64,000 nt of DNA from Nymphaea colorata (Eukaryota > Streptophyta > Magnoliopsida > Nymphaeales > Nymphaeaceae): contig NC_045140.1 in assembly GCF_008831285.2 (NCBI RefSeq), positions 19,528,370 through 19,592,369 on the forward strand. The letters run 5' to 3'. This document shows positions 8,243 through 47,607 of the stretch, one piece after another. Made by a program: the position numbers and the translations under genes. Every line of letters begins with the position of its first letter. Positions within the stretch are counted from its first letter, which is position 1. Under the pieces are notes generated by a model, which did no database searches, was not told the origin of the DNA, and saw only the letters and a program-made list of their open reading frames with translations.

Positions 8243-11200
8243 GTGTCAATGCCTAAGATTTTTTAAAATGCTCTGTACCCATACCTATGTGACATAGGCC
8301 TCAAGCATCAGAGATATTTCTAATGAGAAAGGTCAAGAGATTGGAGGCTTCTGTACAGAGAATCACAGATTAGCCAAGATATCTCCAAGAAGAAAAAAAG
8401 AATTCAGTACCTAAGCAGTCAGATAGAAACTGTGTTTTTTTTTTATTTCCCTAAAAGAGAGGCAAATTTTTGTTGATACGATGATCATATCTTGTAAGGA
8501 TTTATAAATCAACGATATGAACTCTTTGGCTTATAAGATCTTACCTCTAAACACTTCCAAGGGTTTCAAACATGGAGATCACATTCATACGGTCATTTCA
8601 CTAAAAACATACCCAACTAACAGATCTAGCCAAGAATCCTTGGAGCACAAAATAACGCTTACACATGTATATGTGTGCATGCATGCACATGTTCAAGTTG
8701 CGTCCATTGGCAGAGCTAGAAAATTAAAACAGGCAGGGGGACAAATATTATTACAATAAAAATTATAATTAGGGCAACAGATATGTTTGTCATACAATTG
8801 TTGTTAACTAGAAATTGTTTGTTCACGCCCTTTTCTCTTAAATTATCAAGAGAAAGGAGGCAGCAAATTCTTCCTCTTCAACCTTTTGAAGAAAAGAACC
8901 CAGAGATTCCTTTCTCGCTTCTCAACCTTACACGAGTGTCAGTAGAAGGAAAGAACAGGAAGGCACTCCAAAGAAAGGGCAGATTAAAATATCAGTAAAA
9001 CTTGCCAATGTAACAATTGTTTGGGATCACTTTTCTTCTTTGCAATTTGAGTTTTCCCTGTGACTATTTTCATCATTAAGATCTCCAAGATTGACACAAA
9101 GCTAGCTGCAACAGATAGAATCGTAGCTATTGGAACCAGCTCGATATGCAGCCTTCTTCCTCTCTTCACGTAAATGAGGTAGTGGGGTTTATTCCCCTTT
9201 TTTAGCATGCTCTTTTAAATATTTTTTAATGAAAATTGGTGTATGCATATGTGCCTCAACACTGTATTGTAGTGGTCTTTGAGCTTTCTGAATACCATCT
9301 TTTCAGTCTTCTTAATCCTGTATAGTTGTGATCAACCTATTCCTAGAGCATTATGAACTATGAAATTATGTGCATTTAAATAATTATCCAACAAAGGTTT
9401 AACACTGGCAATAGTGAACTCTACAAACTAGGGCCAGACAACAGGCTGGGTGAACCATCAATGAAACCATGGTGGATGAAGATAAGGCTGAGATTTTTGG
9501 CCTATTGGTAGCCCATGCTTCTGCTGTGGCAACACGGCCTGGGCCATGGATTGACAAGGGTTGGCTATGTTTGGCCCATGCATGTGAGAACATAAATAAA
9601 TAGGTCCTCATAATGTGTTGTAGCTAGTATTCTCGGTAAGTCTCTCCCCAGAATAACTTACGATGTTTTTTGTCGATTTATTTAAAATTTTAAACCATTA
9701 CACATGCTTATGAAGTATAATTTATTAGAATATGCAATCAGAACTTGTTGTACATATTCAAGGACCTTGATAGTCTAACCTAACCCAAGTAGGCCCATGG
9801 GCCTAGCAGATGGAACATGGGTAACCCATCTGGTAATATGCCTACCTGAATTAATCTGTTGGCCAGCCTAGCCCAGTCAGAAACCCTTGGCTAGCCAACT
9901 TAAAAGGCCAAGCAAAACAAATGGACCATTTTGTAGAGCTTCCAAAACGGACACTAGATCCTAGCTGGATAAGCAGGCCTTTGAGCGGTTTCCAAGATAT
10001 AACTTCATATACATTTGCAGTTGCACAGATAATATGTTTTGGGAAAATAAAAAACACAGCAATGAATATTACCTGTCCAAATGGACTAAATAATTGCTTC
10101 AAATCCTTTTTTGTTGCCTCAAAGGCAATATTTCTCACAATTAATTTTGTTGAGCTCTTCTCCTTGTCTAATTTTGACGATGAAGTTCCATCACCTGGAC
10201 CTTTTTTGACATGACAAAGTTCCAATTTTAACGCATGCCCTTCTAAAATAGTTCCCTGAAACAGAAGAAACTGAATTTTTCAACAGGAGAAAAAGTATGT
10301 AAGCAAAAATTTAAAAAAAAAAAATTATTAGGGAATCAGATTGGAAAACTTAACAAGTTTCATTCTTTAGCACAATCTGTGGATTTAGGAGAAAAACATG
10401 TTCAAAGCAAGAAAAATTTATATGATATTTTGTGATTCCATAACAAAAATATTCTGTAGAGAAAAAAGTAAAGACTGAACAGGTTGTGTTTTCACATGCT
10501 TTTTGTAAGATTTGGATGTCAAAAATTTCCAACTAGACGTGTGTTTTTCCATCTTCCTGTTCACATGGAACCACAGAAAATCATAGTTGTGTCAATTGTC
10601 AGAAACCGCTTTGATCCAAGTAGAAGAAAGCTTATGCAGACAAAAGTAAGACATTATACAGACTCCAGAGGGAGAAGTAAACTACCTGCAAATCAGTGCA
10701 TGCTGTCTTTGCTGTATCCAACGAGTCAAACTCCAAGAAACCGAATCCCCGTGAGAGGTTCTTTCCATTTTTTATGTGTCGCTTTATCTTTAAAAAGCAG
10801 AACAAAAGTCTATGTTAAGGTTGGAAAGATTAAAAAAAAAAAAGGTTGCTATAAACCATCATCTTTGTTTACCTTAGCACTTAAGATATTACCACTCTTC
10901 AGGTTGTCAGAGAAGTGCTTCCTAAGAGATTCCTCGGCAGTTGAAAAATTGAGGTTCTTCACAAATACTGAACGAGACTGCAGTTATGAGAAAAGATGTC
11001 AATCCCATGGGTATGTACTATAAAAAAAGTGATATCAATGTGTCATTCAGCATGCTAGCACTGTGAAATTTCTTTCGCAGGTATGATCACATAGATCAAC
11101 CTATATTTCAAAAAAATGTAAGATTCAGAAAAATCACAATTTTTCAATGAGTCAGGATCCTTAAGGACTTAAAGTTCAGCGGCCCTAGTTTTTTGGTCTT

Positions 11201-14200
11201 ATCAATCAAATCTACATTAAAAATAATCAGATTTTTTTATTCCATACATCTTTGGACATGTAAAATATGGATGCATGCCTAGATTCATGACCTAAGTAAA
11301 AACAAGAACTCAGATGTAGGTCATTCAAGTCCTTAAGAGGACATTTGTCGCATAGCCAGCAGAAGGACACAAATGTCGGACTCACTCGCATGCATCCTGC
11401 AGAATGAACGCTCCCCAGTTTTGTGCAGCCCTGGAGCTGTGTTCAGAACAGGAAGTCCTCTTCCTGGCATATAGTAGGCTCTCAAGCTTAGCTTATTACC
11501 TAGGTTAGATGTTTTTAGGCAGTCTATTATCTTAAAACACCTAGAACATCGCCTAGGACACCCAGGCACTCAATAGCCTAGGTTTTTTTCATTGACAACA
11601 TAAATTTTTGTTCTTTTTTCCTTTCTTATTCGTTTTATTTTCTGCTTTTCAAACAGATTTTTTTTCTTATTCTGTTTTTGCACAATTTTTTCACTTCTTT
11701 ATAAAAAGTATATCTGTGCAGATGTGCAGTTATAGCAACAACTATAATGCATAGATGATCAAATTTTCAATATTTTATGTTATTATTAATTTTTCAATTA
11801 TCACATATATATTATTTTTTATCCTTTTTCTATCCATTGCCACAAATATGGTTGTTGGGTTCTTAACGGAAAAATTTTTCTTGGGTATTTTTCGGCAAAG
11901 TTATTTTCATGGGAAAAACATGAAAAACTTTTTTAAATGAAAATTTTCAAAAAAATGGTAAAAAAATGAAATAAATCAGAACCTAACAAGAAAACATACA
12001 TATAACTAGATAAAAGTGATAAGAAGAATGTTTAATGATGATAAAAATGATGAAAAATCATTCAGTTTAAGTTTAACTTTGAATTCATGATGATATTAAC
12101 GTTAAAAAAAAGAGAGAGATAAAAGTGAAAAAATCAACAAAATTTTACAAAAAATGTGAAAAAAATATTTTCTCACATTTATTACAAACTATCTCGATTT
12201 TTCACTTTTTTTATTTTCTTATTTTTCTCGTTAATAATATCACAATATCTGTGACACTCTTTACATCAATAAAACTATCATAAAATAACAATTTTATGGT
12301 AAGTAATGTTAACGTGAAGTATGATTATATTGAGGATTATATTAGTGATATTTCAGCTGAAAACTAGTTACAGTGGAGATGCCTGGTGACAGATAAAGTG
12401 TAGACCTTGTGGCTGAAATCTAACATGTGCTACTTTCAGAATCAGGCTTCATATGCATACCATGCGATCAACAATGAATTCCAGAAACCAACCACTAGCT
12501 ATTCTGAAGGCACTTAATTCCCTCTTTGGAATTGTTGTTGATTAGCAAGAAGAAAGCTAAAGATTTTTACCCGTCTTGTCAAAAAGGTCATGAAAATGGA
12601 GAATAGCAAACCTCAAGCCTATCGGGATCAATGTCCTCCGCCAGTTCTATAAAATTCTGTTCTAGCACCAATCTTTTGTCTTTTTCACCAGTTGCATTGT
12701 CATCCTGCCCAGCATCTGCTTCATGGTTTGAGCATAAAATATTGTCGGGTGCCCATTCCAAGTATAATGGAGCATCTCTGCAGTTATGACCCCCCTTAAT
12801 AGCTTCTAAAGAGAACGACACAGTATAGAAATATAGTAATGCCACAAACATCAACAACAAGAATTATGCTAGCTAATCACTATTTTGAATCTGAAAATCC
12901 TAAATGGATGAAATGGAAAACAATTGAAATCAGGAAAAAAGAATAAATACCTATAGCGCCTATATGCTAGGCCCTTGAAAGCAGCCCGAGCTTCAGCTGA
13001 TTCAAGAAAATTCACCTGGGAAAAAACATGAGGAAGGAACTTTTAAATGCTAACAAAAGCTAGCAGTCTCAAGCGAGTCATAAGATGACAAGAACCATAA
13101 AGACATCTCCTCGATGGAATGTCACCAAGAAAGTGACACCCATGCAAGTCAGTAAGATCAACCTTCTATATACATCTCACTTGAAAGTTTTTTCAAAATT
13201 AAAAAAAGACACTTCATTACCCTTGAAGTAAAACGAAGGAAACCAAGGAAATAAATGAACACATTAATGCAAAAAAAAAAAAAACAATTAGAACTTCAAA
13301 TTATATTCTAGTCAAAGCCCCTACATGGCGCATAAGCCCCAAAACTCATTTTCCCTAGTCAGTATTGGGAAAGAAATAGAAAGAGGAAGATGAATCAAAA
13401 CATAATGCTAAAATTAATCAAGACACAGTTGTACACTTGTACTTGTAAAATACAGCCACCATAATTGTTCTTAGGAACCTCTCAACAAGGCTCCTATTGA
13501 AGCTCTTTTAAAAATGAGGCTTTTCATTGGAAAATTTGCTCTTACAATTCTATAAATATCGATAATAATAATAATAATAACAGCAACAACATATGGTAGT
13601 AATAGTAAACAATAAGAAGTAAAAGTTTTTACTATTTTCTTGCAAGAAAATAATAGAAAGCTCTATTAAACAAATACAAAAACTATTATGCTTACAAATA
13701 TTTTTAAAAATTCTTTAAATTTTTTATATCTCCACAATATCATCACATTTCACATTATTTGTTCCAGCACATTGAAATATTATGGGCCAGAGCGTGACAA
13801 GCACACATGTTTTTCCACTTACACTATTCTGTAAGTTTTTTAAGGTTTCCAGTATGCACTATGCTATTAAGCACACTTTTTTTGCAATCTGTTGTGTGTT
13901 TTTGACAATATTAGTCATAATATATATATATATATATATATTGTTGTATGTATGAAATGAGATAGCATGTACATGGAAAAGAGCCTTCTCTAATATATAT
14001 GCACACATACCTATATATGTATAAGAAAAAATAAAGAACATTTCGACTTACAGCAACGTGCAATAAACCTATTGCATAATAGTACCCGAGAAAAGAAAAC
14101 ACCGGCCAGACCCAAATATGTAACATAACAGTTAACACAGAAAAATGCGCTCCTTTGTAAATATATTTTGGTAAAAAGGCAAAAAAAAAAAAACCAACAA

Positions 14201-15522
14201 ATCACAATATATAACGACAAGTGCTTGTTGCCAACTTAGACCATAGCAATTTTAAAAACAAGGCAGTCGCCTAGTCAACTAGCCCATCAACTGATCATGG
14301 TTTGACAACAAAATCAAGTTTCGTTCTCCAATGCAAACCTTTCCCACCCAACCAACTTACTTACCACATCTAGACCAAGTCCAATCTGGCACCCATATAT
14401 GGATAAAACCAGTTGCCTGCAGTTGATTGCAAAGAGAACCACACCTAACACTGCTTACTTTCATTTTGCACAACCCACATAAAAAATCACACTGACTCGG
14501 ATGGGGAAACCCTTTAGGAAATCTACATTACAACAGATTCACAACAAAACAAGCCATATGAATGTAAACCAAGTTCACCATGTTTTCCCCTGTTCATATG
14601 CTCCCATTTGGGAAACAATTGTAAGAGTAAAATTAGCACCGTAAAAGAAAGATAAATTACCAGGGCTAATGTTTTTGTTGGAGGAAGAATAACTTTGTCC
14701 AAACTTCCAAATTTTCCAAACATCTTCACTAGCTCGCTTTCTATAGAACCATAAGGTAGGTTCTTAACAAGGAGCACATGGTTACTTCTTTTAATGTTCT
14801 CTGTCCTTCCAGAAGCTAAATCCTCTAGAGCAGCTACATTAATTCCTGCATTCATTAAGGCCTTTTTTGTTTCAGCAATTACATGTGTTTCACCCAAGGC
14901 AATACGAACTGCAAGATCATCTGCTTCAGGATTCAGTAATTCGCTTTTGCTAATGCCATATTTCCGTGCAATGTTTTCAACAACCTGTTGACATCAGAGA
15001 TGATGCACATAAATAGCTTTTCAATATGACAAGAGAAAAGACTATTCAATATCAACAATTATATCCATGACTTTTGTGACACAAAACCTCATCAAAACAA
15101 GTACCACTTTTCAAGTATGTCAAATATTCCAATGTAATATATCCCAACAAATGGTTCCAAATGAATAGGCACCATTCTCACAAAATCTTTCTTGGAAATT
15201 TATGGAGTCATGGAAAACCAATGACAATTGACATGAGAAACTATTAAGAATAATAGAAAAAGTATAAAATTATGAATTATCTAATAATTTTTCTTAACAA
15301 CATTGATGAACGTTCAAAATAATTTTATTGAGAGAAAAAAAATTGAAAAGATAAATTTGCAGTGCATAACAAAAAGACATAAAGGAAATATGCCAATAAT
15401 ATCATGAATTTTTATAACGCAATATTTTCCATATAAAAAACATATTAATTCTTTTTAGCAATGACATTGCAATAGTTTTAAATTTTCAGCTATATTTGTG
15501 AATTGTGACAATGGTACTCTCC

Positions 15523-15553
<31 letters not shown>

Positions 15554-15574
15554 GCGTGTGTGTTTGTTTTTTTT

Positions 15575-15605
<31 letters not shown>

Positions 15606-18600
15606 GGCGGTGTTGGGGTTAATCCCTTCTATTATTCTATATGTACAACAAAGAAGGGAGAGCTAGCTGTTGGTCCAGATTGAATGTCAAAGGTCATTCT
15701 TGACCTTACAATGAACTGAAAGACAAATAAAATAAAAAAATACAAAAAAACAAGGTCAAGAATGACCTTTGACATTCAATCTGGACCAACAGCAAGCTCT
15801 CCCTTCTTTGTTGTATATATAGAATAATAGAAGGGATTACTACCTATTGTAACTTGTAAGTCTTAATGCTTGATTACTTTCTAAGCATTTCATCAATAAT
15901 GTACTGATTTTTATGAAACTTTGTGCCTTAGTGCATGTTTATCAAATATTCTTGAGTTGCGCACTTGCGCTAATCATAGTCACAGATATTGTTTACAGGT
16001 TTTAAATGGGTACAGCAAAGTTGTTTTTCTCAGGAAAATCTTGGCAAATTTTAAAAATATTAAAAAGAAAAATCCTAAAAATAAAATGCAAAAAACTGAG
16101 AAAATAAAATGCAGTAACGGAAGATGCAAAAAAAGCCAAAAAAACGTGTTTTTTGGAGTTTTTTCGTTTTAGTCATTTTCCTCAAAAAAGTGGGTCCTTT
16201 TGCAGTTTATACGGATGATTTATTTTTGAAGTATAAAACGGGTTTTTTTTAATGTGTTTTCTATGACTATGATGGTGATTGACCTTTCTAGCAGTTTGTT
16301 ATACTTATAACTACTCAGCTAGCTTTTGCCCATCTGTGCCACTGGATCCATATTTAAAAAGGAAAAAATTCACAAGCGCTTGTACAGAGAGAGAGAGAGT
16401 GTGTGCAGAAATAAGGAAACCGAAACAGAGAATAAAAGCTCAATAGTATTTGCTGTACTCGCAATGGAGTATAGCTGTATAGGGAACACAAGACCACAAT
16501 TATGGCCCATAGCCCCATATAGTTTAAAATTACAATTAATGGAGTGTGTAAGGATGGAAATCAAAGATATGAGAAGTCAAGATATTTGGTGCATGGTAAG
16601 TTGGTAACTTAAAGTGTTCAAGTACTGTTCATCTCAAAACTGATTTCATCCCTATGGCAGAACTTGTACTGGTCAACAACCTCCACATGAGTAACTAGTT
16701 CTCTCATCTCTGTCCAACATCTAATAGAAACATGGAATTTCTTTTTTAGGACGAATCAGTAAGTCATTCAGGTGGCTTGAACACATTGACCTGTAGTTTG
16801 CACAAACATGATTTTCAGTAAATTTGTGAAAGTTACTTTGACTGGACAAGCAATAAGACATAGACAAGATGCAGGTCAATAATTATGACAAGTGAAACAA
16901 TATCTGGTAGATTAGACACTATCACAAAGATGAAACTCACAGTATCCTGGCGCATAAACAAAGAATTCCATGACCGTGTGTTGCCACTCGCTTCAGATGC
17001 CTTCCTCTCTTCCTCCTTTTGCTGCTTAAAATTCAGCGAATTTTTCTCAACAGCATTATCAGCCCTGCAACAAAAATCAGTTTGAATCACTTTGAACTTT
17101 GAAGAACTTATCTTTCAAAATCCATGTCAATAGCATGACTGTAGAAATGCAAGTCCCATTAGTTGGTTTTGCATAGACACGTATGTCTTTATTTCATGAA
17201 TACACAAAAAAGTGAGAGAGAAAGAGAAAGAAAACTGTAAAAATTTTATTTTCTGATACCTGACAGATTCAGTTTCATGATTTACCCCATTGAGCCTTCA
17301 AACCTTATGGCACAAGAGAGAGAGAGAGTTTTCACTTTCAAATACACTACAAGACTAGGATTATGATTTACTCAATTGTTAATTTTAAAGTTCCTTTTTT
17401 TCCAAAATTATGCAACTCTCGAGAAATAGCTATCCCTTTTTTACCACTGTATCAATATTTGCATATAGCATGTTAAGACCAAAGCAGTAAAAACGAAAAA
17501 AGGTTAACTCACAAAGTGTTATTTGCACTAGTTAAGACTTTTCCAAGGTCCATTGTCACATTTAGAAGGAAAAAAAGTGTTTTATCTCTGGCAACTTGCT
17601 ATGAAAAAACAAAAGATTTCAGAGTTATGATGACATAGAAAGTAGTAAGAACTACACTTACTCCAACTTCTCAAGATGTTTCTGTTGTTTTGCTGGCATG
17701 ACATGTAACAAGCGTCCTTGAAAAATTGAATTATCTAATTCCTCAAGTGCCCTTCATTAGAGAAAAAAAAACACGTAGGGAATTTAGTTTGCATGTTAGA
17801 GGGTTGATTAACATCTTAACAAATGCCAAACTACAAGAACAAAAAAATTATGGAAAACAAAAAGAAAATGTGTACAATATAGTGCTTAAATACATGAGGC
17901 AACACAAAGGAAAGAACAAGGAATGAGCAAAAACTTCATACGCATGCATATCAAAGATTCAGGAAAGAGACACAAGCACTTGCCAAAGAAGTTGACACAA
18001 TGAGATGAATAACTGATAGGTATGACAAAGAATAATTGAAAAATATTTTTACTCGCACATCTCTACAAAAAAGATACTGTTTTTTCTGTCCCTGGGAGGG
18101 GGAAAACACAATATTGCAACAAATGTAAAGATAACATGCCATAATCAAGATAAGACAGAACCATCCGCCAAGAATAGCCTTGATGTGCACAATTTTTCAA
18201 AAAAAAGACAGTATCAAAGAAATAACTCCTCAGAAGACAGAAGAAGGACCTTAAAGACTATCGGCTTCTATAAGAAGAGTATCGCATGGCTACCAAAAGA
18301 CTCTGATTAAAATTTAAAATAGCACAATGTAGAGATAAAAATCAGCACCTGACTGCAGATTCTGGCAGCTTGTAGAGCACATAGCCAAACCCTTTCGAGT
18401 GTTTTGTCTCTTTATCAACCACAAGGTGCACGTGAGAGATCTCCCCAAACTGGCTAAAGTGCTCCAGAAGGTCATCTTCACTAGTTAGTGCAATACAAAG
18501 ATAAACAATTTAAAAGTCAGAAACAATTAACAAGGAAATAATTACTACTAATAATGTGAGTGAAATTCAATACTAACAAAAGTACACTTACTTTGCTGTG

Positions 18601-35525: not shown

Positions 35526-38500
35526 TTATGTGTTCCTACGCTTGCCAAATTTAGAAGGACCAATTTGCATCAATAAGAATTCTATCATCTTGTCAGTTTC
35601 ATCCCAAAACCAATTTGCTACACTCTCTACGAACACGAGGGGCAGAGTTATGATCATCAGTCCCACTGCAAAACCTATTCCCAATGATCCATACTTCCAG
35701 CCTTGCATCTCCTCATCTCTCTTGTTCATTGCCTCCTTATCACCATCTCCTCCTGTATAGCATGTTTTTTCAATTTGTGCCCCACAAAGCTTTGGGTTTC
35801 CTTTGAAGGAAGATTCATCGAAAGTGCTAAACTGCTTTCCTTGAGGTATCCTTCCTTGCAAATCATTATAAGATAAATTTAAGATCGAAAGAAATGTGAG
35901 ATCTGCGAGCCCCTCTGGTATGGGTCCTGACAGTTGGTTATGAGAAGTGTCTAACCATTCCAACTGCAACAGATTGTCAAAGGAATTGGGGATGAGACCC
36001 TTTAGATGGTTGTTAGAAACATTCAATCCATGTAAATACTTCAACCTCCCTATCTCTTCAGGAATTTCTCCTGTAAAGTTATTGTTGGACATGTCAACAA
36101 TATTCATGGGCCCCTTGATGCTTGTTATAGGCCGATCATTTCCTTTTATTGTTTGCTCTATTTCACCTTGCAACAAGAAATAAGTAGAAACATTGAATAG
36201 GTGAAAAACATAAACGGCTGAAAATACATCATTGTCAACGTAAATATCCTCTGAACCGTTTTGCATCATAGCCTTGAGTCCTTCGAACAATTCATGTGGG
36301 AGAGTTCCCGAAAAATGATTACTAGATATGTCAAAGATCTTCAAGGCAGGAAATGCTTGCAATGAATTGGCAATGGTAAAAATGGGTCCATAAAGACGAT
36401 TGGACCTCAAAACTAGCACTTTTAACTTGGTCAGTTGGCTCAGCCATCCAGGAAATGCATCTTCTAACTTATTGTTCCCAAGATTTAGAGATTTCAAACT
36501 TGTGATGTTGGAAGCTATAGACTTCGGAATTGTGCCAGTCAAAATGTTGCTATTCAAGTCGATGAGCTGTATATTATTGAATCCATTTGGAATTTGCCCC
36601 TGTAATTGGTTATTACTGAGGTTCAAATGACTCACTTTGCAAAGGCAATCTGGTATGGCACCTGTGAGAGCATTGTTTGACATGTCCAATTTGACAGATT
36701 CAGCAATATAGTTGCAAAGAAAAGTTGGGATCATACCATTGATTCGGTTACTTGAAACACTCAACAAAGACAATCGAGCACCAATGGCTCTAGTGGTATT
36801 TGTTGGTTCTTGAAATCCATCAAACTTGTTATGATCAAGATTTAGAAGTCTGAAGCCAGTAATGCCCCACAAACAAGCTGATATTTTCCCCTCAATATTG
36901 TTACTTGAAAGGTCAAGAAACTGGAGTTTGCCTAGTTCACAAATGAACGTGGGAAAACTTTGGATGTCACAAGACCTTAAATTTAAGTACTCCAACTGCG
37001 AGGGATTCATCATGGAAGTGTTGTTGTGCGAGGGATTCATCATGGAAGTGTTGTTGTTGGAATCAGACATTTCCACCCTTAAATTTCGGTTATTGGAAAG
37101 GTCCAAGTACTTTAGAGTTTTTTGTCTGGAAAGATAAAAAGGACAAATGATACTAGTGATATTATTGGAGGAAAGAGTAGCCACTGCTAGAGATGGTAGA
37201 CCATGCATAAAAAAGGAAATATCTCCACTCAATAAATTGTTGTCAAGCAAAAGTATTGTCAAATTTGAACTTGGATTGTAAAATTTGGGGAGCGAACCAC
37301 TGAACATGTTATAACTAAGGTCGAGAAGTATCAGGGAAGGGAGGGTGAAAAGTGATGATGGAATGCTCCCAGATAAGTGGTTGTAACTGAGATCTAGCCA
37401 CTCAAGGGAGGAAAGACAAGAAAAACACGTTGGAATTGTCCCATTCAAAGAGTTGTGAGCAAGCGTTAGATTAATGAGGTGAGAAAATGAGCATAGACCT
37501 TCAGGAATCAAACCTGGTGGATTGCCGCTTGATAAATTCCTGACAGAAATTCTAGTTGAAGTGCAAGATGACAAGGTACTTCCATTCATTGTATTTGATG
37601 TCACCTCTAATCTTGGTTGTGATGGGGGATTTGATGGCACTAAAGGGCCATCAGACAGCTCTCCGATTGAAGAAAGAAGTAGATGTCGAATATTGACACT
37701 CCTTGTTAGATTTCTTGGTGGCAACAACACTGCCAGCTCTATATTGAATGAAATATAAAGAGTTTCCAGTTTAGGCAACAGAAAAATGTTTGGAGGAAAG
37801 GTTCCTAGTAGGTTGTTGAAACTCAAATCCAAGTGAGATAGTGATTGCATATGGAGAAATGGTTCTTCCAATAATGGGCCGACAATGATGCAATTACTCA
37901 GGGAGAGTGTCTTCAATTTTTGGAGAGATGGTGATGACAATAAGGCTGTGCTCACATCTCTGCCGCTCATGGAGACTTCCACGTCACCGATTTGAAGGTG
38001 CTGCAATTGGTCTAACCGCTTGAGAAGGGTTGTCAAATTGGGACGTTGGAGTTGCAGGCCAACAGAATAATCATTCATAGAGAGGTTTAGGGAGATCAAC
38101 CATGTCATTCCCAATAACTCTTCTGGAATTTGCCCTGTGAAGCGACAGTCAGACAGGTCGAGGTGGGTGAGGTTGGTGAGTTCCAAGAGTCTTTTGGGGA
38201 TGCTACCGTTGAACCCATTCCCGCTGAGATCTAGAAGCTGGAGTTGTTTAAGCTCAAACAAGGATGGGTCGATGCTGCCGACAATATGACCATCTGTAAC
38301 ATAAGGTATCTGCAGTTTAATGACAAAGCCGGTGACGCTGTGGCAAGTGATGCCTTGCCAACGGCAGCAATCAGACCCATTCCCCTGCCATGAACTCAGT
38401 GCTCCTGGGAAGAGAAATTTACTAATGCTGTGCTTGAATCGAAGGAGTGCTGAGCTCTCGTTCAAGTGGCAGAGTACCACCGTTGAAGCTGCTGGTGGTG

Positions 38501-38561
38501 GTTGTGTGAGGAGAATGAGAAGAGTAGTAAATAAGAAAACGGTGGCAAGCCTGCGTAGCAT
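35526..38561 (-). CDS. Leucine-rich-repeat receptor-like protein (Cf/Ve type), intact, intronless, 1011 aa
   Basis: A cell-surface immune-type receptor without a kinase domain; such proteins signal through SOBIR1/BAK1 kinases (family knowledge). The ATG at 38561 is chosen because the longer open frame begins with GTG and because MLRRLATVFLFTTLLILL is a good signal peptide. Next come an N-terminal LRR cap (SSALLRFKHS, then DCCRWQGITC) and a long array of extracellular LRRs (LxxLxLSxNxLxGxIP). A non-LRR island (about GLKAMMQNGSEDIYV to GNDRP) precedes the last LRRs, as in Cf-9. The C-terminal cap is FKGNPKLCG, followed by an acidic spacer, a membrane segment at about 958-979 (GIGFAVGLMIITLPLVFV) and a short tail (KFGKRRNT). 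Many NxS/T sites are present. A perfect 30-bp in-frame duplication lies at 36997-37056. The ligand is unknown. Confidence 0.93.
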   Translation of the reverse strand: MLRRLATVFLFTTLLILLTQPPPAASTVVLCHLNESSALLRFKHSISKFLFPGALSSWQGNGSDCCRWQGITCHSVTGFVIKLQIPYVTDGHIVGSIDPSLFELKQLQLLDLSGNGFNGSIPKRLLELTNLTHLDLSDCRFTGQIPEELLGMTWLISLNLSMNDYSVGLQLQRPNLTTLLKRLDQLQHLQIGDVEVSMSGRDVSTALLSSPSLQKLKTLSLSNCIIVGPLLEEPFLHMQSLSHLDLSFNNLLGTFPPNIFLLPKLETLYISFNIELAVLLPPRNLTRSVNIRHLLLSSIGELSDGPLVPSNPPSQPRLEVTSNTMNGSTLSSCTSTRISVRNLSSGNPPGLIPEGLCSFSHLINLTLAHNSLNGTIPTCFSCLSSLEWLDLSYNHLSGSIPSSLFTLPSLILLDLSYNMFSGSLPKFYNPSSNLTILLLDNNLLSGDISFFMHGLPSLAVATLSSNNITSIICPFYLSRQKTLKYLDLSNNRNLRVEMSDSNNNTSMMNPSHNNTSMMNPSQLEYLNLRSCDIQSFPTFICELGKLQFLDLSSNNIEGKISACLWGITGFRLLNLDHNKFDGFQEPTNTTRAIGARLSLLSVSSNRINGMIPTFLCNYIAESVKLDMSNNALTGAIPDCLCKVSHLNLSNNQLQGQIPNGFNNIQLIDLNSNILTGTIPKSIASNITSLKSLNLGNNKLEDAFPGWLSQLTKLKVLVLRSNRLYGPIFTIANSLQAFPALKIFDISSNHFSGTLPHELFEGLKAMMQNGSEDIYVDNDVFSAVYVFHLFNVSTYFLLQGEIEQTIKGNDRPITSIKGPMNIVDMSNNNFTGEIPEEIGRLKYLHGLNVSNNHLKGLIPNSFDNLLQLEWLDTSHNQLSGPIPEGLADLTFLSILNLSYNDLQGRIPQGKQFSTFDESSFKGNPKLCGAQIEKTCYTGGDGDKEAMNKRDEEMQGWKYGSLGIGFAVGLMIITLPLVFVESVANWFWDETDKMIEFLLMQIGPSKFGKRRNT
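36997..37056 (-). repeat. Perfect 30-bp in-frame tandem duplication in the RLP coding region
   Basis: Units 36997-37026 and 37027-37056 are identical, adding ten residues (HNNTSMMNPS after NNNTSMMNPS) with an extra N-glycosylation motif. The broken paralogue has a single unit near 46205-46235. The insertion sits between an LRR and the next LYLNL-type strand, on the outer face of the solenoid. Confidence 0.95.
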
Positions 38562-38610
38562 TGCTGGTAGAGGGGAGAAGAAAGAAGGGAGAGCTAATCG
38601 CACGCACTCG

Positions 38611-41600
38611 CCTTCTCCCTCACATGCTTCGTTTTATGCTGTAGCTTGGGGGTTCCCGAACAACCTCCCCTCTCCGTTCTCGAGCTTGGAGTTAATGCTG
38701 CTCTTCCAAGATGAAAACAAGCCAAAGGCGGGACCGACTCCCCCCTTTTGTTCTGAAGCGGAAATTTCTTCTTTCTTTCTCTTATGTGTTCTGCATTCGA
38801 GTAATTTCGTCCGTGATCTTCTTTTTTTCTGCGATAGGGAAAGAGGAGTCAATCTTGGCGGCCAAATTCTTCCAATGACTCTTGGGGCCGATTGATGTGC
38901 GAATTCAAAGCCCATTGGGAAAAGCGGTGTCAAGGAGTTGGCCACAACTTTTCTTCCCCGTTTTGGATTCCAGAGGACAGATTTTTCCAGTAGAGCACTT
39001 TCTGATGCATAATACAGGCAGCAAGAATGTTGTAGACGCTGCTGAGCTTTGTTCCTTTTTTTTTCTTTTTAGAACAATTAAACTTCGACATTTCACACAA
39101 TCCAGCCATCCGCACATATTTTTTCAATGGACATCTTGCTATGAAAACCAGACCTATTAATTGTGATAAAATGTTTTTTTTTTTTTTTGCAAGCTAATCT
39201 TATTGGTATGATCTTAAAGAATATGTTGATGAAAAATATATATTAAGCTAGTCATTTGTTAGACGTTAATAGGTTTCTTATAATAAAAAAAATGAATGAC
39301 CTCCATAACATCAACGTTTTAATAATTAAAAAAACTACATTTTTTATAAAAACAAATTGAATCAAAGCATAATTTATATGAAACTAGTTTTCTTAATTTT
39401 TTAAGACGTTTATATTTTATTTAAAATAATTTTTTAGCAAAAAAATTAGAGGGATAGGTAGAAAGTTGTTAATATAATGCTAGTTGAGCTTAGCACTTTC
39501 AATTTAATATATTAACTGTATAAAATCTCCATGTAAACACAAAAACTCTTTCCAATTTTTTTCTTCGCCAAATTCCTGCACATTTTATCTGGATTCCGGC
39601 ATCAAATTTTAACCATGCCCAATTCAACTAGACATATACTTATTTGCAAAATGCTACATTGATTGAGATTCCTTGTCACTTGGATGTGTTTTTTAATGTT
39701 TATGGTCTCAAACCTTTTTTACTTCTCGACCAGTGATTGACCAATTGTTTGAACGATTGAAGACTTATAATTTTCTTGAATTGTAGCGTCATTTAAGAAT
39801 TATAATATGAACTGATTTAGCTTTTTTCCATATGAAACCGCATGGACTTGACTTAGTTGGGGTTAACTTTTCGAATTTGGATAATTTCAAGCACTGTTCA
39901 TGCAATTAAATTAAATTAGTAAAATGACGGTTCTTCTCCCTCACCTCACCTGCTCCGCTTTATGCTCTAACAAAGTAGTTAAAAGACAATGACAATGCCG
40001 TTGTTTAGTCTATGGAGAGAGATTCATTAGTCAAATGTGCGTTTGAAGCCACAAGCGCGTCGCCGTCGACCCACCTGCCACATCTTCTCCATCCTCTCTA
40101 TCTCTTTCCTTTTCCCTCTGCAATTTTCTATGACGCAAGAAGCCCGAAAATAGCTTCCTATGAGAATTAAAGAGCAGACTATCCTTCTACTAATTGCAGG
40201 TCCGACCAGTACGTGAAAGCATTGGCATATTCACTGAACCTATCTCATGGACCAGCGTGTAGGTAGATCTGCCAAAACTGCAGTCCTTTTTGTCAAAGTC
40301 AGAAAAGCTTTTTCTTCTCTCTTCTTCTTTGTGTACATACACACACACATATCACATATTATATTATGGATTAAACACTAAAAAAAAAATCATCAAGGTC
40401 TTAATTTCCGTGGTAAAGGAAGATTGGATGGAATGGTTGGTCTATTTAAAGGGGTTGGAACTGGACGAGTCTAATGGATGCGGCTTGAAAGAAGAAGGCA
40501 GGAACTGTCATCGCCAAGATATTATTTATTTATCCATGGGTAAAATGTTTTCAAAATTGATCCAAAAATTTGTTCTCCATTGCTCAGCATGGTAATACTT
40601 CTACTTCGATTTTTTTTTTGTTTAAAAGAAAAATGTTTCAAAGAAACTTTTAGGATGAAGTTTCATACACAAGACTATGTGGGGAATTTTTTACGTCGAT
40701 TTAATTAATGCTCTTAAACATAATCATCTTCCTTTCCCAGACTATGTTCGGAATTTTTGCTTATTAGTTTAACTGAAAAAGAAAAGGAACAAGCATGATG
40801 ATTCTTGCTCAGTTGTGGTGAGGCATAGAAACATGGATGTCAGATTTGAATTAGACGTACATTTTACTATAAATATGAATATGAATGAAAAAAAATAGAT
40901 ATCATATTTCCGTCAAACTTTTTAAATCCACAACTCAATCTGATTCGGATTTTTATATACACAACTAAATCCAAATCCTGTATTATGGTATATTAATAAT
41001 TGATTTTCAAAATATGTTAATATTGGACGTAGGATATCTATTTAAAATCAAAATCCAAATCAAAGATCAAATCCAATCAAATATTTTTATTTTGAACCAA
41101 ATCAAAAATATGATTAAATGTCATTTCTTAAATCCTAATCTGATGTGATCTTTTACTTGGGCATTAAATTTTTTTTTTTTAAACCATATCTGACATTTTT
41201 ATGCAATTTGGTTGGACACCGGAAAACCGCTGCTGGGTTTGTCTCCTATATATTCAAAGTAGGGGAGAATATTTATGTACTGTTATACCATTTTGATTTC
41301 AAATCCGAAATCTGATTTCGTTGGTAGTTGAGAACCACTATTCCAATAGTGGGCTCCCATATTTCCGTTGAAGATCGAGCTCATCAAAACTCAACGAGTC
41401 GGAGTGCAACAAAGATTGAGTCACGGGATTTTATTTTCGAAATATATGAATTGACGTATATGCTTCTCAATGGAAAATTGGTGTTGAGGTTATAATCTTT
41501 CTAATGGATTTGGCTATCTATGTGTCGCTCATCATTGTCTGGTGCCATTCGGCCGGCTCAACAAAATCATGCGCGTCCAAACCTACCGAGTATAAAAGAA

Positions 41601-43884: not shown

Positions 43885-44791
43885 TCTCCCTACCCTTTAA
43901 AAACTTTTCTTTTAATGTGACATTTCTTTTAATGTTTAGCATAATTTACCTTTCAACTGAGTCAGTACTTTAGTGTCAACAAAGGATGAGAATGCAAGGT
44001 TGTTTCATCAAATATCAACTAGATCACAACTAAATTCCATGAGTAAGGCTAATATGTTTCCACTTCTAATTTGCGAAGAAAAGTCGTGGGACTTGCGTTT
44101 TAGATAATTATTTTTATCCAAAACAGGAAAAAGCGGAAGATTATGAGAAAGAAAAATGGATACGAATTGGATATGCATTTTCAACCCCCTTTTTTATTAA
44201 AAAAAGATTAAAGTAGAAGAAATTATGATGGATTGTTAAAATTCTTACCATTTTGCCAATCCAAATACTATCGCCAAATGGACATAGGCAAATGGATCAA
44301 ACAAATTTGAGTCCGTTCAAATGGAATCAGTTAAGGAAGTTGGATTTGAATTTTTTTTTCCCATGTAGTTTACAAGTAATTGGATATTATGCATGTGAGG
44401 TTCAAACTTGATTTTCGAAAGTAGAGCATACATGAATCCATGTCGAAATCCTTTTGCATGTGAATTTCAAACCTGAATTTTAAAAGTGCAGTCTGAATCC
44501 AAGTCTAAATTATCTGTGTCCGATCAACCTCGATTCCCTAAAGTCGGATGGATAATAAACTGCATGGATCCAATTAACCGAAACTCGATTAATAAAAAAA
44601 AAAAGGACTTGTCATAGGAGCATAAAGCGGAGCAAGTGAGGGAGAAGAACCGTTTAAAAGAAAAATTATATAAATGCTGCTCTCCCTTCGTTTCTTTTTA
44701 ACTAATTGTGGTTCCTCCTTCTGTTCTGATGTACGATTAGAGGGCCACTGAACTAATTTCAGTTTGCTCACTGGGAGTTGCCCTACCAGCA

Positions 44792-47607
44792 ATGCCACGT
44801 GGGCACACCACCATTTTCTTAATCACTACTCTTCTCATCCTCCTCACCCAATTACCAGCAGCTTCAGCGCTACTTTGCCACTCGAACCAGAGTTCAGCAC
44901 TCCTTCGATTCAAACACAGCATTAGTAAATTTCTCTTGCCAGGAGAACTGAGTTCATGGCAGGGGAATGGGTCTGACTGCTGCCGTTGGCAAGGCATCAC
45001 TTGCCACAGCATCACCGGCTTTGTCATTAAACTGCAGATACCTTATGTTACACTATTTGGTGATACTGTCGGCAGCATCGACCCATCCTTGTTTGAGCTT
45101 AAACAACTCCAGCTTCTAGATCGCACCCACAATGGGTTCAATGGTAGCATCCCCAAGAGACTCGTGGAACTCACCCACCTCGACCTGTCTGATTGTCGCT
45201 TCTCAGGTCAAATTCCAGAAGAGTTATCACAAATGACATGGGTGATCTCCCTGAACCTCTCTACGAATTATAATTATTATGTTGGTCGCCTACAACTCCA
45301 ACGTCCTAATTTGACAACCCTTGTGAGGTGGTTAGACCCATTGCAGCACCTTCGACTCAACGACGTGGAAGTCTCCATGAGCGGCAGAGATGTGAGCACA
45401 TTCTTATTGTCATCACTATCTCTCTAGAAATTGAAGACACCCTCCCTGAGGGATTGCAACATTTTCGGCCCATTATTGGACGAACCATTTCTCCATATGC
45501 AATCATTATCTCACTTGGATTTGAGTCTCAACAACCTGCAAGGAAACTTTCCTCCAAGCATTTTTCTACTGCCTAAACTGGAGACTCTTTATATTTCATT
45601 CAATAGAGACTCTTGATATTTCATACAATAGGGAGCTGGCAGTATCGTTGCCACCAAAAAATCTTACAAGGAGTGTCAGTATTCGACGTCTATATCTTTT
45701 ATCGATCAAAGAGAGCTGTCTGATGGCCCTTTAGTGCTCTCCAATCCCCCTTCAGGTTTGATCCCTGAAGGCCTATGCTCATTTGCTCACCTCATTGATT
45801 TAAGTCTTTCTGACAACTCTTTGAATGGGACAATTGTAACATGTTTGTCTTGTCTTTCCTCCCTCCAGTGGCTAAATCTCAGTGACAATGGCTTAAATGA
45901 GAGCATTCTGTCGTCACTTTTCACCCTCCCTTCCTTGAGTCTCTCTACCTTCAATCTAATAGGCTCAGTGAATCGCTCCCCAAATTCTACAACCCAAGTT
46001 CAAAACAATACTTTTCCTTGACAACAATTTAATCAGTGGAGATGCTTCCTTTTTTATGCATAGTCTACCTTCACTTAAATTTGCTAGCCTTTCCTCCAAT
46101 GATTTTACTAGTATGGTCCGTCATATTTTTCGGGTAGGAAAACTAGTCTATATCGTTTGGGCCTCTCCAATAACAGAAATTTAAGGGTGGAGTTTTCTGA
46201 TTCCAATAACAACACTTCCATGAAGAATTCCTCGCATTTGTGTACTTAAATTTAAGGTCATGTGATATCTAAGGTTTTCCCACATTCATCTATGAACTAG
46301 GCAAACTTCAGCATCTTGACCTTTCAAGTAACAATATAGAAGGGGAAATATCAGCTTGTTTATGGGGCTTACAGACTTAAAACGTTTAATTCTTAATCAT
46401 AACAAGTTCTACGGATTTCATGAGCTAACAAATACCAATAGAGCCATTGGTGGTCGATTGTCTCTTTTGAGTGTTTCAAGTAACTGAATAAATGGTCCGA
46501 TCACAACTTTTCTATGCAACTATATTGCCGAATCTATCACATTGGACAAGTCAAGCAATGCTCTCATAGGTGTCATACCATATTGTCTTTGCAAACTGAG
46601 TCAGTCAGTAGCAACCAATTACAGAGACAAATTCCAAATGGATTCAATAATATACAGCTCCTTAACTTGAATAGCAACATGTTGACTAGCACAATTCCAA
46701 AGTCCATAGCTTCTAATAGCACAAATTTGAAAGCTCTAAATCTTGGTAACAACAAGTTAGAATATGTATTTTCGGGATGGTTAGGCTGACTAACCAAGTT
46801 AAAAGTGCTAGTTTTGAGGTCCAATCATCTTTATGGACCCATTTTGATCTTTGCTAATTCACTGCAAGCATTTCCTGCCTTAAAGATCTTTGACATATCT
46901 AATAATCATTTTCAGGGACTCTCCTACATGAATTGTTTGAGGGGTTCAAGGCTATGATGCATAATGGCTCAGGGGATGGTTACTTTTATGATGATGTATT
47001 TTTAATAGTATTTGATGTTTTTAACATGTCCATTGTAGTCCATTCTCAATACTTGCACGGTGAAATAGAGCAAACAATTAAAGGAAATGATCAGCTTGGG
47101 CTGAATGTTTCCAACAATCATCTAGAAGGTCCCATCCTCTTTTTTTTTTTTTTTGACAATTTGCTGTAGTTGGAATGGTTAGACTTTTCTCAGAACCAAC
47201 TGTCAAGACCCATACCAGAGAGGCTTGCAGATCTCACATTTCATTCAGTTTTAAACTTATCTTATAATGATCTGCAATGAATGATACCTCAAGAAAAGCA
47301 ATTTAGCACTTTTGATCCTTCTTCTTTTAAAGGAAACCCAAAGCTTTGTGGGCCACAGATTGAAAAAACATGCTTTGTAGGTGGATATAGTGATAAAGCG
47401 GCAATCAGCAAGCGACAGGAGGATATACAAGACTGGAAGTATGGATCATTTGGAATAGGATTTGCAATGGGATTGATGATCATAACTCTACCCCTCGTGT
47501 TCGTAGAGAGTGTAGCAAATGGGTTCTGGGATCAAACTGAGAAGATGATAAAATTCATATGGATGCAAATTGGTCCTTCTAAATTTAGCAATCATAGGAT
47601 CCCATAA
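44792..47607 (+). pseudogene. Broken paralogue of the LRR receptor-like protein
   Basis: It is homologous over its full length to the gene at 35526-38561. The start ATG at 44792 and signal peptide (IFLITTLLILLTQLPAAS) survive, as do the LRR cap and first repeats. The first break is an in-frame TAG at 45425-45427, where the intact copy has Gln. A 25-bp tandem duplication (45581-45605, 45606-45630) then shifts the frame. More stops and indels follow, including a deletion of roughly 100 bp near 47090 that removes an LRR and a T-tract near 47140-47154. The last 108 codons (47281-47607) are again open and keep FKGNPKLCG, the membrane segment (GIGFAMGLMIITLPLVFV) and the tail. It cannot encode a full receptor; a 211-residue secreted LRR fragment could be made from the 5' part if transcribed. 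Confidence 0.93.

Follow-up and report, generated by a model that had tools for sequence, protein, structure and literature searches.

The DcSto Stowaways of carrot are among the known counterparts closest to the element considered here. In the structural description given for them, these elements are short, contain 60-72% AT, duplicate a TA target site and carry a terminal CTCCCT that is always distinguishable; DcSto3, 6 and 9 fold wholly into almost perfect hairpins, and some DcSto copies are intronic (PMC3695323). A MITE hairpin within a gene intron has also been described for AddIn-MITE, which lies in a WD40 gene at a position common to sugarcane, sorghum and maize and was proposed as a proto-miRNA locus; in the mapping presented there, its small RNAs were mostly 21 nt long in sugarcane, very few in sorghum and none in maize (PMC6331000). 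The rice Osa-MIR812w is a Stowaway-derived 24-nt miRNA, for which expression, mutant data and targets are presented (PMC10004981). According to the model outlined in that review, DCL3 produces 24-nt rasiRNAs from long near-perfect MITE stems without RDR2, and nucleotide changes in the arms precede the handling of the stem by DCL1 as a microRNA precursor (PMC10004981). The pineapple Ac-mMITEs, as characterized in PMC8449440, are Mutator-related; most of them have (TA)n as their direct flank, and a smaller number have GA or CT repeats there. Moreover, 76.19% of the maize genic hairpins found by one method are located in introns, and a correlation of hairpins of this sort with methylation and small RNAs was seen (data summarized in PMC10760457). 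MITE-derived miRNAs are also common in plants, the survey figures given being 985 miRNAs in 392 families from 56 species (PMC12550479).

The foldback at 15620-15839 of the window (the whole 64-kb stretch of DNA that was analysed) is, with a probability of about 0.8, a Stowaway-like (Tc1/mariner-type) MITE in an intron of an MRD1-like gene, as judged by its anatomy. It resembles the carrot DcSto elements, as described, in being short and AT-rich, in its TA duplication, near-perfect hairpin and intron location, and differs from them in ending with ATCCCT instead of CTCCCT; for DcSto1 a copy-number estimate is also available (PMC3695323). With AddIn-MITE it shares the placement of a MITE hairpin within a gene intron (PMC6331000), and with Osa-MIR812w a hairpin of Stowaway type as a possible source for DCL3 (PMC10004981); those two systems are documented in addition by small RNAs, expression or conserved position. 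The pineapple elements are likewise MITEs beside simple repeats, and Ac-mMITE-2 is of similar length (210-270 bp), but the simple-repeat tract here is 12 bp away and on one side only (PMC8449440).

Anatomy of the foldback and of its ends

The foldback and the putative element within it comprise the following features.

15620..15707, plus strand: left foldback arm, TA included
15708..15751, plus strand: single-copy loop, 44 nt, 18% GC
15752..15839, minus strand: right foldback arm, TA included, 86/88 complementary to the left arm
15622..15837, strand unassigned: putative MITE, 216 bp, 66% AT, with 86-bp terminal inverted repeats matching at 84/86 positions
15620..15621, strand unassigned: TA, left copy of the putative target-site duplication
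15838..15839, strand unassigned: TA, right copy of the putative target-site duplication

The foldback far exceeds chance expectation. Its inverted-repeat arms (15620-15707 and 15752-15839), each 88 nt long and separated by a 44-nt spacer, pair at 86 of 88 positions when compared with each other, and the two differences are located at 15643 and 15665 in left-arm numbering. This confirms the arm and loop lengths and the few base differences reported in the initial annotation. In the repeat search of the whole window, the foldback was the only inverted repeat of at least 40 nt within 1 kb. A looser script scan of the window, from which low-complexity arms were removed, returned three inverted repeats, i.e., the foldback and two short ones (21 nt with two mismatches and a 17-nt T/A run with none), and ten first-order Markov sequences serving as the control contained 0 or 1 apiece. 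The score of the foldback, calculated as length minus three times the mismatches, was 82 vs. at most 16 for any of the random sequences.

The suggested in-silico folding gave a strong hairpin on both strands, with -157.1 kcal/mol (z -27.4) for the plus-strand RNA and -152.1 kcal/mol (z -23.2) for the minus-strand RNA, values equalled by none of the 200 shuffles in either case. The hairpin had been called perfect; its strength is borne out, but the minus-strand RNA, which has the sense of the pre-mRNA, carries both arm differences as mismatches (C-A and U-U), and in the plus-strand RNA one of the two is a G-U wobble. Near the inner end of each arm, at 15692-15705 and at the mirror position of the right arm, lies GGTCATTCTTGACC (or its complement), which consists of a 5-bp stem and a 4-nt loop, and a small secondary hairpin can therefore arise within each arm. 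A DNA cruciform was also considered and rejected: the single DNA strand of the foldback folds strongly (-97.9 kcal/mol), yet a 44-nt spacer disfavours cruciform extrusion in duplex DNA, which makes it unlikely here.

The putative element (15622-15837; AT content 66.2%) has symmetric ends, ATCCCTTCTA, and its own ends read ATCCCTTCTATT, flanked by TA. Both termini are ATCCCT, the first TIR base being A and not C. A scan for target duplications of 2-10 bp at symmetric end offsets from -3 to +7 yielded only TA, bounding 15622-15837, and a trivial AT internal to the repeat. The 2-bp TA duplication characteristic of Stowaways is thus present, although about 7% of cases would show it by chance: TA accounts for 6.9% of the window dinucleotides, and any perfect inverted repeat with TA at one end automatically has it at the other, so that with a chance of about 0.07 of such an ending the duplication is weak evidence. 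The element is also, in the manner of Stowaways, short (216 bp, under 500 bp), AT-rich (66%) and able to form secondary structure (z -27). The terminal CTCCCT of carrot DcSto is matched at five of six bases, and the element is therefore filed as Stowaway-like and not as a proven Stowaway member.

The lack of any 3- to 10-bp duplication at the symmetric ends tried argues against the Tourist, hAT and Mutator types. A Tourist (PIF/Harbinger) MITE was rejected because no 3-bp TAA/TTA match occurred at symmetric offsets from -3 to +7; TTA does stand in direct orientation at both 15619-15621 and 15837-15839, but ends defined by it would be one base off. For a Mutator or hAT MITE, no duplication of 8, 9 or 10 bp was present at the same offsets. 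A plant Tc1-like element (PpTc1/2) requires terminal CAGT...ACTG, whereas the ends here are ATCC...GGAT. Capture of a gene fragment was likewise dismissed, since all six arm translations contain a stop and nothing in them is recognisable by eye.

Copy number is the core of the definition of a MITE, and several genomic copies with the same ends are expected. Within the 64-kb window no second copy of the element was found, the best other match being 16 nt, and the arm, compared at E up to 1, matched no other part of the window over more than 16 nt. Exact matches numbered zero in the viral collection (three patterns) and in the bacterial and archaeal collection (two patterns), and the plasmid collection gave no match; because these collections cover viruses, prokaryotes and plasmids, such misses say little about a plant nuclear repeat.

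Host intron and the neighbouring simple-repeat tract

The foldback is located in the following intron of a minus-strand gene.

14985..16940, minus strand: host intron, GT..AG, 1956 nt; the upstream exon ends ...MRQDT

The donor GT lies at 16940 and the acceptor AG ends at 14985, and the flanking coding blocks join in frame across the 1956 nt. The foldback is clear of the splice sites, as 635 nt separate it from the acceptor end of the intron and 1101 nt from the donor end. An RRM domain was matched by Pfam above the cut-off in the coding block 9851-10279 and slightly under it in the block 14523-14993. When the joined peptide was compared with solved structures, the two matches were the RRM of 1whx and Nucleolar protein 4. 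The title of 1whx names a hypothetical protein, RIKEN cDNA 1200009A02, which we take to be Rbm19 of mouse; in animals, Rbm19 is the relative of MRD1. The label MRD1 is consistent with these matches; the label, a role in rRNA processing and the plant origin of the window follow in part from what is known of these protein families. Six coding blocks lie upstream of the intron, and the first of them, which lacks an ATG, starts directly behind an acceptor-like AG, so that one further upstream exon is implied; the intron number 7 is consistent with six blocks and this additional exon. The initial placement of the foldback inside MRD1 intron 7 therefore holds as an intron of an RRM-protein gene, with both the label and the number being consistent.

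Beside the left arm, a composite microsatellite extends over 15523-15607, its parts being counted by script as follows.

15523-15542: (CT)10
15543-15552: (AT)5
15556-15563: (GT)4
15567-15584: T18
15585-15607: G23

All five parts that had been proposed for this tract are present, but it ends 12 bp before the left arm and does not abut it; the combination of insertion and slippage at one place stands as a description of position and nothing beyond. Tandem Repeats Finder reported nothing in 14000-18000, though simple repeats are plainly present there. The G23 run is an odd item, as every other G or C run in the 64 kb is at most 6 long, and it is directly preceded by T18 (15567-15607 together), the longest T run of the window. 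Both may result from slippage at an unstable site or may be a sequencing or assembly artefact; in two-colour Illumina chemistry, lost signal is called as G.

Elsewhere in the window, a 1035-codon open frame on the minus strand (35526-38633) encodes an LRR receptor-like protein. By eye, a diverged inverted copy of this frame lies about 6 kb away on the plus strand (44741-47607) and seems to be split into several open frames.

Small-RNA potential and competing origins

No Rfam family reached its gathering score in the whole window. At a relaxed threshold, the region 15500-15950 gave 20 matches, 15 of them to microRNA families and five to other RNAs (four sRNA-type families and one snoRNA outside the hairpin). 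Several of the E values were small; the best match, MIR8562, had an E value of 2.2e-12 and 69 bits vs. a gathering score of 211. As all 20 matches were under their own gathering scores and spread over many unrelated families at once, they were rejected as signs of kinship; they probably reflect a response to the long stem, such as any long hairpin might give. Plant microRNA precursors are recognised by a foldback of less than 300 nt with near-complete pairing, and by precise miRNA/miRNA* reads with 2-nt 3' overhangs; the foldback here measures 220 nt and pairs at 86/88 positions. With respect to curated precursor families, its matches were the sub-threshold Rfam ones, and a lineage-specific microRNA gene would be absent from Rfam. 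The suggestion that the locus is a candidate young microRNA gene thus found nothing specific in its favour, no Rfam family having been reached at the gathering score. The ordinary MITE, named initially as the alternative, fits better, with its TA flanks, symmetric ends, 66% AT and 216 bp.

The hairpin might nevertheless feed the plant small-RNA machinery. Taken with the outlined model of stem processing, the 86/88 stem points to the siRNA end and not to DCL1 microRNA processing (PMC10004981), and this model together with the maize hairpin data makes small RNAs from the element plausible without specifically indicating a microRNA gene. A young microRNA or miRNA-like gene, possibly descended from a MITE and processed at fixed sites into one small RNA that would regulate other transcripts, could draw on the stable intronic hairpin, on the sub-threshold matches to many microRNA families, on the frequency of MITE-derived miRNAs reported for plants (PMC12550479) and on the sugarcane intronic MITE referred to as a proto-miRNA locus (PMC6331000). 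However, the gathering scores were not reached, two mismatches in 88 resemble an siRNA source more than a DCL1 substrate under the published model (PMC10004981), and 12 short pieces of the element were absent from the running text of the papers searched, so that we regard such a gene as highly improbable. Also improbable is a very young MITE insertion, specific to the lineage, whose intronic hairpin, carried in the pre-mRNA of an rRNA-processing factor, already gives rise to siRNAs or a proto-miRNA, the adjoining G23/T18 tract being then a product of the insertion or of the same unstable site.

A Stowaway-like MITE has to be reconciled with A instead of C as the first TIR base at both ends, which leaves the six-base motif at 5/6, with TA flanks that are weak evidence, and with one copy in the 64-kb window. 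The same single copy would be left by a local inverted duplication: a template switch, in the course of replication or of break repair, would have made a reversed copy of 88 bp of the intron, and the structure would never have transposed and would be unique in the genome. The site suits this origin, as the tract 12 bp away, with its G23 and T18, is the kind of sequence where replication stalls; symmetric TA ends, AT-richness and Stowaway-like termini would, however, all have to be coincidences, and this origin is unlikely. The extreme length of the adjoining G23 relative to the next longest G or C run (6) could also speak for an assembly or sequencing artefact, i.e., a snap-back chimera beside a doubtful homopolymer. 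A copying artefact should yield identical arms, whereas these differ at two positions; moreover, the loop sequence occurs once and both ends fall symmetrically on TA, and the probability of an artefact is close to negligible.

Proposed history and meaning of the element

As a Stowaway-like MITE, the foldback would be a short non-autonomous Tc1/mariner-type DNA transposon, consisting mostly of inverted repeat and inserted at a TA site of the intron, with a presumed Tc1/mariner-type transposase supplied from elsewhere in its presumed movement. The element is likely to be young, because its arms differ at two positions. The arm divergence of 2/88 (2.3%, corrected 0.023), at substitution rates usually cited for plants (6.5e-9 to 1.5e-8 per site per year), suggests an age of about 1-2 million years or less, a rough value that comes from two changes in arms that may have been unlike before the insertion. 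The element would be transcribed with the pre-mRNA, its arms pairing at 86/88 positions, and the hairpin would normally be spliced out and then degraded. At most, DCL3, DCL2 or DCL4 might cut it to mixed 21-24-nt siRNAs, which could in turn methylate the element. Most likely, the element does little.

Summing up, the element is ordinary and of a known kind, and since intronic MITE hairpins and their small RNAs are already documented, the general picture would be unchanged. If it is a recent MITE, it would add one more possible starting point for the path from MITE to microRNA and would provide a usable insertion marker.
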